This document shows positions 23,441-29,338 of a DNA stretch of 64,000 nucleotides, in pieces. Position 1 is the first letter of the stretch, and every line of letters starts with the position of its first letter. A program made the position numbers and the translations under genes. Below the pieces are notes generated by a model. It saw nothing but the letters and a program-made list of their open reading frames with translations. It made no database searches and had not been told where the DNA came from. Origin of the DNA: Bacteroidia bacterium (GTDB lineage: Bacteria; Bacteroidota; Bacteroidia; UKL13-3); NCBI GenBank assembly GCA_023151275.1, contig JAKLJI010000011.1:1-64000 (forward strand), read 5' to 3'.

Positions 23441-23857
23441 TTACCAAACGTATTGTTTTTTGTTCATTAACAAAGCTTCTCCGGTAATGGTTTCTGTTCC
23501 GGTTGCCTTGTCAATCACTTTGGTTTCATACAGCACGCGATTCTTTTCAGGGAAAATTTCTTTAACTGTAATCACAGCCTGATAATCGGTATCAACAAAC
23601 ATAGGGCGAAGGAAAGTGGTATTTTGTTTCATGTATATGTGGCCATCAGCATACAGTAAGGTGCCGAAGATTTTAGTAAATACGCTGGCACTGAAATGGC
23701 CATGAATAATGCATTTGCCAAACATACTGGCAGCTCCTACTTCCTGATTGATATGCAAAGGATTGGTATCGCCGCTAATTTTTGCATACAAATCAACTTG
23801 TTCCTGTGTGTAGCGAATGTCGTGTGTGAATACATCGCCTTGTTTTGGTGAACTCAT
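23441..23857 (-). CDS. phaJ: MaoC-like (R)-specific enoyl-CoA hydratase
   Basis: The 138-residue hot-dog protein carries the full hydratase 2 motif, YAKISGDTNPLHIN followed by the conserved Ala/Ser, with catalytic D30 and H35, and the second motif IIHGHFSASVF. Short stand-alone MaoC proteins of the PhaJ type hydrate trans-2-enoyl-CoA from beta-oxidation to (R)-3-hydroxyacyl-CoA, the monomer of polyhydroxyalkanoate. It is divergent from a PhaE-like/PhaC pair, which supports monomer supply as its role. Related MaoC proteins act in other pathways, so the symbol rests largely on context. Confidence 0.75.
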   Translation of the reverse strand: MSSPKQGDVFTHDIRYTQEQVDLYAKISGDTNPLHINQEVGAASMFGKCIIHGHFSASVFTKIFGTLLYADGHIYMKQNTTFLRPMFVDTDYQAVITVKEIFPEKNRVLYETKVIDKATGTETITGEALLMNKKQYVW

Positions 23858-24009
23858 ATTTTTTGAATTTTAGTTCCCCATACTAGGAAAAAAACTTCAA
23901 TTGCGGAACGAAAAAATGAAATTTAGAAAAGGGCCTAAAAAAAATGTGCCTGAAGCCTCAAGCCAGACAAGGCTTTGCACGAATTAACAAAGAAATTATC
24001 CTTAGGCTA

Positions 24010-24038
24010 TTGAAAATTAATAAATTATACTAATTTTG
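24010..24038 (+). promoter_or_regulatory. Bacteroidota promoter of the phaE-like gene
   Basis: TTG at 24010-24012, 18 bases, then TAATTTTG at 24031-24038, a full match to TAnnTTTG. Transcription would start near 24045, which rules out the upstream in-frame start and supports the ATG at 24096. Confidence 0.65.
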
Positions 24039-24095
24039 CGCCCGATTTCGGGAACGAAGTTAAAACCCCATAAAAAAACAATAATAACCATTAAA

Positions 24096-25412
24096 ATGGA
24101 AAATCCAAACATGTTCAACTCTTTTGCAGATATGCAGAAAAAGGCGGTAGAGCAATTCACTCAGGCAGCTGAAAATATGAAGAATGCTATGCTCAATGCA
24201 AACGGTGTTGATTTTAACTCTGAATTCTTCAAAAAGTGGTATGATTCACAAATGTCTTGGTTCAACAAGCACCAAGATGGTTCAAACAACCAAGCGTTCG
24301 ACTTTTTCCGTAACTGGATGAATGCCCAAACCGACATCGCACGTCAGTGGTTTGATATGTCGCAAGGTATGATGAAAACCATGCCAATGCCGGGTATGGA
24401 AAACATGAACTGGAATAACCAATATTCCAACATGATGAATATGTTCAATTCATGGAAAGATTCTATGAATACTGCATATACAGATATGTTGTCTCAGTTC
24501 AGCAATGGCACCAACAAAGAAACTTTCTCAGGCATGTTTAATAATGCTGAGATGTATATGAAAATGTTCCAGTTCTGGATGCCAATGATGAAAAGCCTTC
24601 AGGATAAAACATTTACTCCTGAAATGTTCCGCAGCATGTTCAATGCTCCTGCCTACAAAGAAATGATGGACAATATGTTCAACATGCAGCCTGATTTCAT
24701 GAAGAACTTCTACAATCAGTCGCTCGACATGATGAAAAACAATGGTGGCAACATGATGGATATGGGTAAAAACATGTTCGATCAAATGAAAGGAAACATG
24801 AACAATGCCATGAATCAATTCATGCCAGCCAACATGTTTACAGCCATGCTTGATTCATACAACAACTGGTACACACAAATGCACCAAGCTGCTGCACCAA
24901 TGGCTCGTTTGGTTGCTAATGGTCCTGCCAAACAAAGCGCAGAAGCCATGCAGGAGTTGATGAACCACATGAACATTTATCAGTTGAAAAATGCTCAAAT
25001 GCAATACATGATGTACACTACAGGTATGAAAGCCATGGACGAAATGGCAGAGTCCTTGTACACACGCATGCGCAACGGCGAGGAGTTTACCAATTTTATG
25101 AAAGTATATCAAGAGTGGTTGAACAATAACGACAAGCATTTCGTTAACCTGTTCCAATCCGATGAATACTCTAAATTGATGAGTGAAGTGAGTGCTTTGC
25201 AACTTGGTTTGAAGAAAAAAATCGAGAACCAAATGGAAAAGGCTCTTTCAAACCTTCCTTTGATTAACCGCACTGAAATGGATGAGTTGTATCAAACCAT
25301 TCAAACCCTGAAAAACAGAATCAACCAGCTCGAGAAACAAATCGATATGGAAACTGATTCTACTGAAGCCAAAGAGGCAAAACCTCGCAAAGCTTCAAAA
25401 GCTAACGCATAG
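24096..25412 (+). CDS. phaE: PhaE-like PHA synthase subunit, Met/Asn-rich
   Basis: The product is 438 residues from the ATG at 24096; the frame could extend upstream, but the promoter lies there. By my count about 62 residues (14%) are Met, and Asn is also very high, mostly between residues 90 and 270. The C-terminal part resembles PhaE (ALQLGLKKKIENQMEKALSN then a coiled stretch MDELYQTIQTLKNRINQLEK), the region that contacts PhaC in class III synthases. The extreme tail (EAKPRKASKANA) is Lys/Ala-rich as in granule proteins that touch DNA. PhaE has no catalytic site; it activates PhaC. The gene directly precedes phaC with a hairpin between. Similarity over the central Met-rich part is unclear, so a phasin-like scaffold is the alternative. 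Confidence 0.75.
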   Translation: MENPNMFNSFADMQKKAVEQFTQAAENMKNAMLNANGVDFNSEFFKKWYDSQMSWFNKHQDGSNNQAFDFFRNWMNAQTDIARQWFDMSQGMMKTMPMPGMENMNWNNQYSNMMNMFNSWKDSMNTAYTDMLSQFSNGTNKETFSGMFNNAEMYMKMFQFWMPMMKSLQDKTFTPEMFRSMFNAPAYKEMMDNMFNMQPDFMKNFYNQSLDMMKNNGGNMMDMGKNMFDQMKGNMNNAMNQFMPANMFTAMLDSYNNWYTQMHQAAAPMARLVANGPAKQSAEAMQELMNHMNIYQLKNAQMQYMMYTTGMKAMDEMAESLYTRMRNGEEFTNFMKVYQEWLNNNDKHFVNLFQSDEYSKLMSEVSALQLGLKKKIENQMEKALSNLPLINRTEMDELYQTIQTLKNRINQLEKQIDMETDSTEAKEAKPRKASKANA

Positions 25413-25438
25413 TTTCTGTTTGTTTATAGTGTTATAAA

Positions 25439-25471
25439 GGCCATGGGTTGAGGGACCTGTGGCTTTTTTTT
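25439..25471 (+). terminator. Hairpin plus T-run between phaE and phaC
   Basis: GGCCATGGGT ... ACCTGTGGC forms a 9-bp stem with two wobble pairs around TGAGGG, followed by eight T residues. It could end or reduce transcription between the two genes and so set the PhaE:PhaC ratio. No clear separate promoter for phaC is seen in the remaining 70 bases. Confidence 0.6.
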
Positions 25472-25542
25472 AACCTATACTTAAAAAAATCTTGAATTTA
25501 AGCTGAAAATTTTCCTATTTCCATTTAGAAATAACAATAACT

Positions 25543-26598
25543 ATGATGAATATGAACCTGGCCGGTATGATGGAAGAAATGACCAAAACCGGTGAAAAAA
25601 TTGTAAAAGGGTATGAACTGCTTTCCAAGATGGAGGAAGTGGAAGTAGGTGCAACTCCTAAAGAATTGGTTTGGCAAAACGACCTGGTAAAGTTGTACCA
25701 CTATAAGCGCGAAACTCCGGCTACCTGTAAAATACCTGTGCTGGTATCTTTCGCTATAATGAACCGCCACGATGTACTCGACCTTCAACCCGACCGCAGC
25801 TTGATGAAAAAGTTTTTGGACGAAGGTCTTGATGTGTATATTATGGATTGGGGATATCCAAAAAAGCAGCATCGTTACCTCACCATGGAAGATTATATTT
25901 TAACCTTCATGGATGGTGCAGTTGATTTTATTCGCAAGAGCACCGGTAACGACAAAATTCATAAAATGGGCATTTGCCAGGGTGGTACATTCTCTACCAT
26001 TTATGCAAGCTTGTTCCCTGAAAAATTGAAGTCGCTTACGGTATATGTAGCACCATTCGATTTCAGCGGAAACGAGTGTATGTTGTACCGTTGGACCAAA
26101 GACATTGATGTAGATGCCATGGTAGATTCTTTGGGAATTATCCCGGCTGATATGTTGAATGCTGGTTTTGGTGCGCTTAAGCCTAGCATGGATATTAGCA
26201 AGTACTTTGGTGTTGTTGATATGATGGGCGACGAGGCTAAGATGGCCAACTTCCTGCGCATGGAAAAATGGAAAGCAGATTGTCCGGATCTTGCCGGCGA
26301 AATGTTCCGTAAATACATCAAGGATTTATTCCGCGATAACAAACTGATAAAAGGCGAAATGGAGTTAGGTGGACATAAGGTTAATCTGAAGAATTTAACC
26401 ATTCCATTCCTTAATGTTTACGCTACTGAAGACAATATCATTCCGAATACATCAACCATTCCGGTAAACGATGCAATTGGTTCAAAAGACAAAGAATTGT
26501 ATGCTTTCCCGGGCGGACATATTGGTGTATTTGTAGGCGCTAAGTCTCAAAAAGAGTTGGCTCCAAAAGTTGCCAATTGGGTTAAAGACAGAAGCTAA
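25543..26598 (+). CDS. phaC: Class III poly(3-hydroxyalkanoate) synthase, catalytic subunit
   Basis: At 351 residues the protein matches the class III PhaC size (about 355). The alpha/beta-hydrolase fold carries the lipase-like box GICQGGT with nucleophile C145, the aspartate D297 in YATEDNIIP, and H326 in FPGGHIGVFVG; the Allochromatium triad is C149, D302, H331, so spacing agrees closely. The VYIMDWGYP segment and YRWTKDID are also typical. It polymerises (R)-3-hydroxyacyl-CoA into storage polyester together with the PhaE-like subunit encoded upstream. Ketothiolase and reductase genes (phaA, phaB) are not in the window; the divergent MaoC gene may supply monomers. Confidence 0.93.
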   Translation: MMNMNLAGMMEEMTKTGEKIVKGYELLSKMEEVEVGATPKELVWQNDLVKLYHYKRETPATCKIPVLVSFAIMNRHDVLDLQPDRSLMKKFLDEGLDVYIMDWGYPKKQHRYLTMEDYILTFMDGAVDFIRKSTGNDKIHKMGICQGGTFSTIYASLFPEKLKSLTVYVAPFDFSGNECMLYRWTKDIDVDAMVDSLGIIPADMLNAGFGALKPSMDISKYFGVVDMMGDEAKMANFLRMEKWKADCPDLAGEMFRKYIKDLFRDNKLIKGEMELGGHKVNLKNLTIPFLNVYATEDNIIPNTSTIPVNDAIGSKDKELYAFPGGHIGVFVGAKSQKELAPKVANWVKDRS

Positions 26599-26659: not shown

Positions 26660-29338
26660 TTACTTCCCTTTCTTCAGTTTCAATCGTTCTTTTCCAAATT
26701 CAAGGAGAGCATCAATAAATTCATAAGGCTTATACCCGTTCAATGCACATTGGTGGAAGATGGCAGTTGCCGGAGTCATACCCGGTAAGGAGTTTATCTC
26801 AATGATAATTACTTCTGGTTTTTTGCCTTTCCAAACCCGAACAAATGCATCAATGCGGCAATAGCCTTCAACACCCAATGCCTTTGCAGCTGCTTTCAAA
26901 ACGTGCTGCACCTCTTTGCTAATGGACTTATTGGCTGAAGGTGTTTTGGCATATCGCGCTGGTGTAATGTTTTGACCTTGTCCCGCAAGGAATTTTTCTT
27001 CTAGGGATAGAATTTCACCTTCAGCAAGCGATTCACTCGGCTCAAAAGTTTCAAACACCAATTTGCCTCCTTTGTACTTGGTAAGCATTCCCCCCGTAAC
27101 TTCCAGAAAATGGTGTGCATATTCTTTCTCTACAAATTTCTCAACTAAAAAATGGGGCTTCTTAGGAAACTCTTCTTTGGGTTTTAGTCCAAGTCGTTCT
27201 GCCAGTTCTGCATTGATTTCAAGGCTAGGTCTGAAGGCGCCATCCGCAAAGGCAATGAGCTGTTCCCTGGTTTTAATTTTCTTTACCGCAGAACTACATC
27301 CATCGTCGGCAGGTTTGGCAATGAGTGGGTAACCAATAGCTTCAATATGCTTAATTACCTCGTCTTTGTTTTTTTTCCACTCCTCTTCTAAAACCAATGC
27401 ATGGTCGGCAACCAAGAATCCTTTTTTTCGAAGTAGGGCATTGGTTTCAAATTTGTTGATGGTGATTTGCGAACTTTCAACACCCGAGCCATTGTAAGGA
27501 ATTTTAAGTTTGTTCAGTTCCTTTTGAATGGTCCCATCTTCTCCCGGTCTGCCATGAAGGGCAATGAATACAGCATCCGCTAATTTCTTCAATTCGGCAT
27601 AGCTGATTTCTCGTGGTTCAAACAATTCGGTCTTGCTGTATTTGTGAAGAATATCACTACACTCCGCAGCAATGGAATTCATGATTTGAGGCCGATGGTA
27701 ATGCATCACTTTATCGCGAATATCATCGGCATTGTCCTTCAGCATAACATGAATAGGCAAAAGGTATAGCGAATGCAATTGGTCATTGCCTGTTACAAAA
27801 ACCGGGAAGGGTTCGTATTTTTCGGAGGAGGCAAGTTTCTCGTAAATGTTTCTTCCACTTTCTACCGATATATGCCGTTCTGTTGAATACCCACCCATCA
27901 TAACCGCCACCCTTGTCTTTTTGGTTTTTCGGCTTGATTGAAGTTTCAGTTCAGCATCCAATTTCTGCAACAACTTTTCAAAAGCTGAATGTTGACCAAT
28001 ACTTGCAATGCGTTCTGCCAGCGAAGTTCGGATGATATAAGTTAAGAACTGCGATGGATTCAAACCAATTTCGGCAGCCTGATGAAAGAAGAAAGACGAT
28101 GGCATCATGCCGGAAGTGGTATTCGGATCATTCAAAAAAAGTTGTCCATCTTTAGCTAGAAAGCCGTCGATACGGGCATACACATGAAAGCCAAAATGAA
28201 CAAACAAGTGCTCGCAGGCCTTCCGTATTTTTTGAATGCCTTCATCATCCAAGTCAATTGGCGTTACTTTCCTGCTTAAACCAGGAAGGTACTTGCTTCG
28301 GTAATCAAAAACTTCTTTGCCTTTCACAATTTCTGTAGGAGGCAAAGCAACTGCACTTCCATCTTCTTTTCGTAACACAATGCACGAGAATTCCCGCCCT
28401 TCGATAAAGGCCTCGGCAAGCACTTCTGTTTCTGCTGCAAGACTTTCTAGTACAACTTCATCCTGTTTTTTGAATTGCTTATCGAGGAAATCCCAACACG
28501 CATCCGGATGCGTAATTGTGGTGTGTCCGCATCGTGCAGGTAAACCAATGCCTTCTTTTACATCGCTTAGTTTTTGAATGAATAAATACTTGCCATTCTT
28601 ATCTAAAGAAGTCCATTCTTGTTTTTTAATTTTTTGAATGAAGAATGCCCTGAGAACGGCTTGTTCAAATGCCTCAAATGAGTTGTGATTAATCACTGAA
28701 ACACCAACCGAGCTGCCTTGATTAGCCGGTTTTATAACAAATGGAAGACCTGGTTTGGCAAGCATTTCGGCATGAATTTCTTTCAAACGCCCAAGTTCAT
28801 TTCGGTGAATGCTTGCATAAGCAGGAACCTGCATTCCTGCAGCCAGCATAAGGTCTTTTTGCATGCGTTTATTCATGCCTAGGGCACTTGGCAAAATACC
28901 GGAGCCTGAGTAGGGGATACCATGCCATTCAAGCAATCCCTGTATCGTACCATCCTCGCCAAAATTGCCGTGAAGGGCAAGGAACGCGAAGTCTATATAG
29001 TTTTTGAGTTCAGAGAATTGCAGAAGCTTGCCCAATTTTCCAGCCATTTTTCGGCCTTGATCTGCATGAGCCTCCTCAAGATGTTCTGCATATACTTGAA
29101 TTCCGTATTTGTTGTCTTTTAAATAAGAAACAGGAGGATAAAAGTCGCGGATTGAACCCTTGTAAATGTATTGCCAATCCAACAGGATAATCTGATTGAA
29201 ACTGTCAACAAACAGCGGTACAGCTTCAAACAAGGATTTATCGAGGTTGTCGTAAACTGTTCTTCCACCTGCAAATGAAACTTCCCGTTCTCGGGAACTC
29301 CCCCCGAAGAAAATGCCAATACGAATGCGATTGCTCAT
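26660..29338 (-). CDS. Tandem (double) D-alanine-D-alanine ligase-like protein
   Basis: The 892-residue protein is two complete Ddl-type ATP-grasp units in a row. The first (about 1-455) has GGSSREREVSFAGG, ALHGNFGEDGTIQG, VIKPANQGSSVGVS and NDPNTTSGMMPSS; the second (about 475-890) has MMGGYSTERHISVESG, ALHGRPGEDGTIQKE, LIAKPADDGCSSAVKK and EINSLPGMTP. Canonical Ddl is about 310-360 residues and acts as a homodimer, so this may be a covalent dimer, or the halves may have different substrates. The first unit replaces the usual E-(V/I)-N with ND-PN at the metal site; the second lacks the canonical SSVGV in its phosphate loop (CSSAV). Neither half is clearly inactive. Cytoplasmic peptidoglycan precursor synthesis or another dipeptide ligation is inferred. 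Confidence 0.85.
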   Translation of the reverse strand: MSNRIRIGIFFGGSSREREVSFAGGRTVYDNLDKSLFEAVPLFVDSFNQIILLDWQYIYKGSIRDFYPPVSYLKDNKYGIQVYAEHLEEAHADQGRKMAGKLGKLLQFSELKNYIDFAFLALHGNFGEDGTIQGLLEWHGIPYSGSGILPSALGMNKRMQKDLMLAAGMQVPAYASIHRNELGRLKEIHAEMLAKPGLPFVIKPANQGSSVGVSVINHNSFEAFEQAVLRAFFIQKIKKQEWTSLDKNGKYLFIQKLSDVKEGIGLPARCGHTTITHPDACWDFLDKQFKKQDEVVLESLAAETEVLAEAFIEGREFSCIVLRKEDGSAVALPPTEIVKGKEVFDYRSKYLPGLSRKVTPIDLDDEGIQKIRKACEHLFVHFGFHVYARIDGFLAKDGQLFLNDPNTTSGMMPSSFFFHQAAEIGLNPSQFLTYIIRTSLAERIASIGQHSAFEKLLQKLDAELKLQSSRKTKKTRVAVMMGGYSTERHISVESGRNIYEKLASSEKYEPFPVFVTGNDQLHSLYLLPIHVMLKDNADDIRDKVMHYHRPQIMNSIAAECSDILHKYSKTELFEPREISYAELKKLADAVFIALHGRPGEDGTIQKELNKLKIPYNGSGVESSQITINKFETNALLRKKGFLVADHALVLEEEWKKNKDEVIKHIEAIGYPLIAKPADDGCSSAVKKIKTREQLIAFADGAFRPSLEINAELAERLGLKPKEEFPKKPHFLVEKFVEKEYAHHFLEVTGGMLTKYKGGKLVFETFEPSESLAEGEILSLEEKFLAGQGQNITPARYAKTPSANKSISKEVQHVLKAAAKALGVEGYCRIDAFVRVWKGKKPEVIIIEINSLPGMTPATAIFHQCALNGYKPYEFIDALLEFGKERLKLKKGK

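Follow-up and report, generated by a model that had tools for sequence, protein, structure and literature searches.

A predicted class III polyhydroxyalkanoate synthase locus with a methionine-rich PhaE-like subunit in one family of Bacteroidota

A 64,000-nt stretch of DNA from a Bacteroidia bacterium of the UKL13-3 lineage (hereafter the window) carries at positions 23441-26598 a locus that very probably encodes a two-subunit class III polyhydroxyalkanoate (PHA) synthase together with an enzyme able to feed it, and PHA synthesis is predicted from these genes. As stated in the original prediction, three genes lie together here, with exact coordinates for the first and the last. A PhaJ-like enoyl-CoA hydratase of the MaoC type (138 amino acids, 23441-23857, minus strand) is transcribed away from a PhaE-like subunit (438 amino acids, 24096-25412, plus strand) and from PhaC, the catalytic subunit (351 amino acids, 25543-26598, plus strand). 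The start of the PhaE-like protein was set by choice at the ATG at 24096; the open reading frame (ORF) as listed begins with TTG at 24036. PhaC would polymerise (R)-3-hydroxyacyl-CoA via thioesters on Cys145, and His326 and Asp297 would activate the thiol and the hydroxyl group; this chemistry is general to PhaC enzymes, and the residues themselves are seen in the window protein. PhaE, which is observed to co-occur with PhaC, would bind, activate or tether it at the growing granule. The divergently transcribed hydratase would turn enoyl-CoA from fatty-acid oxidation into (R)-3-hydroxyacyl-CoA, as its family and motif suggest, and 3-hydroxybutyryl-CoA may come in addition from a thiolase and a FabG-like reductase whose genes lie elsewhere.

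On the NCBI class III model TIGR01836, PhaC scores 415.3 bits (cut-off 365.3, E 1.8e-124), and its scores on the class I and class II models (151.3 and 75.9 bits) are far under the respective cut-offs. The catalytic cysteine of class III PhaC sits in the motif G-X-C-X-G, and the window protein fits with GICQG, the cysteine being C145. The complete catalytic triad originally proposed is present and conserved wherever the alignment covers it: C145 is found in 47 of 47 rows, window row included, and D297 and H326 each in 46 of 46, the remaining row being gapped at these two positions and probably representing the contig-cut PhaC of genome G006. An AlphaFold model built with 22 sequences has a predicted local distance difference test (pLDDT) value of 85.5; the top 15 hits of this model among known structures are all PhaC chains, belonging to seven entries, and a lipase follows. 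In a tree of 26 rows the clade of the window PhaC falls with the class III references and apart from class I on a branch supported at 100/100, with just two class I and five class III references and a long class I branch. Model score, structure matches and tree placement agree with the class assignment, and the protein is, judged by its sequence, the catalytic subunit of a class III PHA synthase. A non-PHA alpha/beta hydrolase, with which PhaC might have grouped instead, is ruled out because PhaC models and structures are ahead by a wide margin and because TIGR01836 scores across the phylum leave a broad gap, with matches over the cut-off at 368.4 bits or above and the next one down at 34.6 bits.

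The second subunit scores 63.7 bits on Pfam PF09712 (cut-off 25.7, E 2.3e-17) and 44.8 bits on NCBI TIGR01834, which is under the cut-off of 154.95. Because the first model is passed and the cut-off of the second is missed, we term the subunit 'PhaE-like' and regard it as a predicted variant. Its predicted structure is helical at low confidence (pLDDT 44.4), and a phmmer search for a solved structural relative gave none up to an E-value of 1. Among the 64 genomes of the family, phaE is present in 27 of 27 that bear phaC and in none of the 37 others. A PhaC match occurs in 28 of the 64. One of these matches, in G052, is a 38-residue remnant in a frame of 43 amino acids, and this genome was scored as phaC-negative; with G052 among the phaC-bearing genomes, phaE would be found in 27 of 28. 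Two of the 27 phaC-bearing genomes have imperfect genes, cut by the contig end in G006 and with one stop inside the match in G002. On a threonyl-tRNA synthetase (ThrRS) tree that covers 56 of the family genomes (the eight left out have no usable ThrRS row and are all phaC-negative), 10 of 10 independent pairs on well-supported, starred branches agree in the co-occurrence of phaC and phaE. The two genes are at most 1 kb apart in 22 of the 27 genomes and on different contigs in the remaining five (G033, G035, G036, G037 and G044, with phaC near a contig end in G033 and G044). Outside the family, all 18 further phaC-bearing genomes have a PhaE match, although three from Bacteroidota group f20 reach just 30-37 bits and some frames are broken.

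A PhaC operating without a PhaE partner was hinted at by the five family genomes and by eight Chitinophagaceae-type loci. Searches with hidden Markov models (HMMs) around phaC found no phaE in these eight stretches, nor in those of G080, G338 and the second of G346. The idea was rejected because phaE was located elsewhere in the genomes concerned. From co-occurrence, PhaE appears to be an obligate partner of PhaC. Genomes G346 and G404 each contain two different class III phaC copies and two PhaE matches. The remnant in G052 (G052:C12:4167-4280) corresponds to the C-terminus of PhaC and lies inside a 66-kb contig of a genome without a phaE match; it is possibly a trace of gene loss.

The PhaE-like protein has a peculiar composition, with 14.2% Met and 13.0% Asn, compared with a mean Met content of 2.15% over the ORFs of the window. 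Neither this composition nor the co-occurrence of phaC and phaE figured in the original prediction. Residues 1-245 contain 17.6% Met, 15.5% Asn, 10.2% Phe and only 2.8% Leu, Ile and Val taken together, and the C-terminus forms a short Lys/Ala-rich tail. When 314 distinct ORFs of at least 250 amino acids from 31 stretches, mostly around pha genes, are ranked by Met content, PhaE proteins with 9.7-19.1% fill the top 20 ranks, followed by two PhaC with 6.6% each. The 20 PhaE are homologues and their Met richness therefore counts as a single evolutionary trait, not as 20 independent ones. At the Met positions of the window protein, 19 other rows show Met in 63%, Leu in 10% and Phe in 5% of cases. 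PhaE of the family member G033 has 9.2% Met and that of G080 has 6.8%. Nine homologues of full length, which come from Chitinophagaceae, Saprospiraceae and unplaced Bacteroidota, range from 8.9 to 12.6%, and two fragments have 5.7 and 7.8%. Groups f20 and f49 show 3.1-7.8%, and three PhaE used as references show 4.9-5.6%.

It is possible that this richness in Met and Asn reflects copper binding, oxidant scavenging or drift rather than contact with a granule. Met alone does not show significant 100-degree periodicity in the window protein (p 0.105 and 0.06), while the whole hydrophobic set is significantly periodic in the helical sense (p 0.001 and 0.002). Copper-type motifs were considered and dismissed, MxxM and MxM not being clearly enriched (z 1.3 and -1.1, nine patterns tested); the helical spacing MxxxM is mildly enriched (z 2.6). 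Drift alone is unlikely because the Met bias holds in all 20 family PhaE ranked. That the Met/Asn-rich PhaE touches the surface of the polyester granule is our guess; it would perhaps offer a flexible hydrophobic surface to the amorphous polyester. The M domain of the signal recognition particle serves as an analogy for a methionine-bristle face. Carrying this analogy further, which we do with considerable doubt, the synthase partner of this lineage may be of a newly evolved type, namely a long PhaE with amphipathic helices in which Met and Phe replace Leu, Ile and Val and Asn is the main polar residue. The flexible 'methionine-bristle' face of such a protein would hold amorphous polyester or nucleate granules and would tie phaE and phaC to each other as obligate partners also where the two genes have become separated. 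An account of Met-rich PhaE was not found in the open-licence literature searched.

The minus-strand gene encodes a PhaJ-like hydratase of the MaoC family that we infer to be (R)-specific. It scores 57.6 bits on PF01575 (cut-off 27, E 1.2e-15), and the nearest solved structures by sequence are the (R)-specific enoyl-CoA hydratases 5cpg and 1iq6. It shares with these PhaJ structures the family and the aligned Asp and His residues; similarity is modest, however (60.7 and 54.5 bits), and stereospecificity is a prediction for the window protein. D30 and H35 lie in GDTNPLH, and the motif GDxNP[LIV]H occurs in 33 of 33 hydratase homologues examined. Hydratase-2 enzymes have a longer Asp/His consensus, to which the window protein was matched with the last position relaxed to admit Gly. 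Of the 27 phaC-bearing family genomes, 26 have a homologue, which shows 52% identity in G033 and is truncated by a contig end in G054. In 19 of the 27 its gene is no more than 1 kb from phaE, and this vicinity also holds in G036 and G037 with phaC on another contig. Proximity and co-occurrence thus bear out that the divergent hydratase belongs to the locus. In one Chitinophagaceae genome, phaC adjoins genes read, without HMM, as acyl-CoA dehydrogenase and 3-hydroxyacyl-CoA dehydrogenase.

Other results weigh against PHA synthesis and storage as set out here. Apart from the missed TIGR01834 cut-off and the low-confidence model of the PhaE-like protein, they concern the hydratase, the supply of monomers and the mobilisation of the polymer. 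The hydratase is missing from the phaC-bearing genome G010, and this absence may be real because the contig continues for 1.9 kb past phaE. Homologues also occur in four of the 37 phaC-less genomes (G048, G040, G052 and G055 with 85, 78, 51 and 30% identity, respectively). With the gene present without phaC in G040 and G048 and missing in G010, the hydratase may have another job than PHA supply. A PhaB over the cut-off of 302.1 bits is not found in the genome, and the best two short-chain dehydrogenases/reductases score 259.7 and 256 bits. The TIGR01830 cut-off identifies one of them as FabG. The second (G000:C11:443898) is ambiguous, reaching 279.1 bits on the FabG model (cut-off 297.75) and 256.4 bits on that of PhaB, and is encoded near a gene read, without HMM, as acyl-CoA synthetase. 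A PF06850 search of the genome for PHA depolymerase matched PhaC alone, and scans of four other hydrolases among its PF00561 matches gave no score over a depolymerase cut-off; the search was a partial one. That no mobilising enzyme is identified is a gap in the storage interpretation.

No phaA or phaB lies beside the locus, as noted at the outset, and an arrangement of the phaCAB type known for polyhydroxybutyrate (PHB) operons is not seen around phaC; the contig that carries the locus has no match to the PhaB model, and the closest thiolase match on it lies at a distance of about 51 kb. A search elsewhere in the genome, as the original prediction had suggested, revealed two thiolases over the TIGR01930 cut-off (G000:C2:77348 and C22:164646), one closest to 3-oxoadipyl-CoA thiolase models and the other to acetyl-CoA acetyltransferase models, and no reductase at the PhaB cut-off. 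We consider it rather unlikely that the hydratase is an ordinary enzyme of fatty-acid metabolism and a mere neighbour, with monomers stemming from thiolase and FabG-like reductase. The two thiolases, the reductase intermediate between FabG and PhaB near a putative acyl-CoA synthetase gene and the discordant genomes G010, G040 and G048 would fit such a setting, whereas the contrast between 26 of 27 and four of 37 genomes and the lasting vicinity to phaE, even in G036 and G037 with their distant phaC, speak for a link. The proposal that monomers derive from beta-oxidation through the hydratase therefore stands in part: a linked hydratase and three acyl-CoA dehydrogenase matches in the genome make this route possible, but with two thiolases over the cut-off it need not be the sole one.

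The lack of a PhaB and of a depolymerase over the respective cut-offs could also be taken to mean that PhaC and PhaE make short, non-storage oligo-hydroxybutyrate (complexed PHB) or another polyester instead of storage granules. We hold this to be very unlikely in view of the PhaE partner and the linked hydratase, which resemble known class III loci, and the depolymerase search was limited to four hydrolases and one family.

In an even draw of 395 Bacteroidota genomes only eight, the window's own included, pass TIGR01836; class III synthase is rare in the phylum, in line with the earlier remark that PHA storage is seldom described there. Three other genomes of the same genus, one of them 79% complete, have no phaC. 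In the two congeners whose ligase neighbourhood was read, the D-Ala-D-Ala ligase-like gene next to the window phaC, a thioredoxin-like gene and a putative dapA are kept, other genes are found at the pha position and a subtilase-like gene has shrunk to an ORF of 105-122 amino acids. Parsimony on the best ThrRS tree, a one-gene tree, needs 15 changes in phaC presence. In the PhaC tree, g8, g9 and g14 form single groups, as does g2 at 74%, and g4 and g13 are split. Conflicts with ThrRS concern G028 (g4), placed beside g2, G049 (g10), placed with g13, g14 and G029 (g4), and g9 and g7, placed with G080 from outside the family. The window PhaC is sister to g2 plus G028 with 87% SH-aLRT, under the 95% mark, broadly as in the ThrRS tree.

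We read phaC as a trait that is probably old in the family and has been lost many times and transferred in some cases, a reading that a single marker cannot prove. A recent import into the window genome appears unlikely: the phaC-less congeners, two of them with the ligase retained, and the clashing positions of G028, G049 and g9/g7 would agree with it, but the window PhaC sits roughly where ThrRS predicts, g8, g9, g14 and, at 74%, g2 hold together and GC content is ordinary. The latter point had been made before and is correct, with values of 0.386-0.415 across four 1-kb steps over the locus compared with 0.41 for the whole window. The earlier statement that the locus is resident rather than a recent import is supported only in part: its presence in 27 of 64 family genomes and its base composition agree with it, but the three congeners and the 15 changes on the ThrRS tree do not. 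Family genomes with phaC are larger (mean 3.58 Mb, n=21, versus 2.88 Mb, n=19; at least 95% complete, uncorrected for kinship).

A promoter candidate of the Bacteroidota type, TTG-N18-TAATTTTG, is present at 24010-24038 on the plus strand, 86 nt upstream of the phaE start; the underlying pattern is what we take to be the Bacteroidota promoter consensus. Of 18 loci that are related and so not independent, 11 have the pattern at a distance of 86-94 nt before phaE and seven lack it within 200 nt. The chance expectation is about 0.003 per 200 bp of shuffled intergenic sequence; the whole window has 15 matches on both strands and shuffles have about four per strand. Sigma-70 type promoters and terminators show no clear excess over shuffles (7 versus 9.6 and 4 versus 2.9, respectively). 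The type IX secretion system (T9SS) genes reported around the locus come down to two nearby proteins with the sorting domain TIGR04183 (31.4 and 41.5 bits, cut-off 23), which are predicted T9SS cargo; secretion machinery was not matched among the five flanking proteins scanned. The ligase-like gene (26660-29338, minus strand) encodes 892 amino acids in two tandem D-Ala-D-Ala ligase-like halves with 69% identity in two congeners.

Plasmid and phage records contain only more distant PhaC, with best identities of 40.6% and 24.9-25.3%, respectively. Plasmids of Rhizobium indicum and Sinorhizobium meliloti resemble the window in a two-gene phaE-phaC arrangement annotated as the same class, with PhaC 38.5-40.6% identical. 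They differ by a PhaE of 197-232 amino acids with 5.6% Met and 2.2-4.1% Asn and by the absence of a MaoC gene from the stretch shown, for which the gene table is incomplete. A Haloferax larsenii plasmid has a MaoC gene on the strand opposite to phaE-phaC and a class III PhaC, as in the window, but an AbrB-type and a hypothetical gene lie in between, PhaE has 182 amino acids with 4.9% Met and archaeal PhaC branch off separately in the 26-row tree. In two further haloarchaeal plasmids a MaoC gene directly precedes class III phaC, phaE not being annotated in the stretch shown. Bacteroidota groups f20 and f49 share with the window a TIGR01836 score over the cut-off and a PhaE match, but their PhaC fall outside the window clade and their PhaE are poorer in Met, as given above.

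Published articles report class III PhaC in 13 Bacteroidetes genomes (PMC8312272), list Parapedobacter as a PHB producer (PMC9957297), describe whole-cell fluorescence without granules for most Bacteroidetes strains, with primers that miss class III (PMC7464897), mention few or no PHA synthase genes in most Bacteroidetes with seaweed-degrading potential (PMC9676036) and place phaC on phage sequences in PHA-producing cultures containing Bacteroidota (PMC12013262). The main text of the article describing UKL13-3 (PMC5248499) does not contain the terms polyhydroxy, phaC, PHB, storage or granule. UKL13-3 is reported to come from a co-culture. Since class III PhaC and a PHB producer have been published, the PHA potential of the phylum is already known.

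With phaC in 27 of 64 genomes, this Bacteroidota family makes a clear case, on genomic grounds, for PHA synthesis in a phylum with few class III synthases (eight of 395). The Met/Asn-rich PhaE is a naturally occurring variant with which the function of PhaE at the granule can be studied, and the co-occurrence of phaC and phaE, even with the genes apart, is evidence for PhaE being indispensable.

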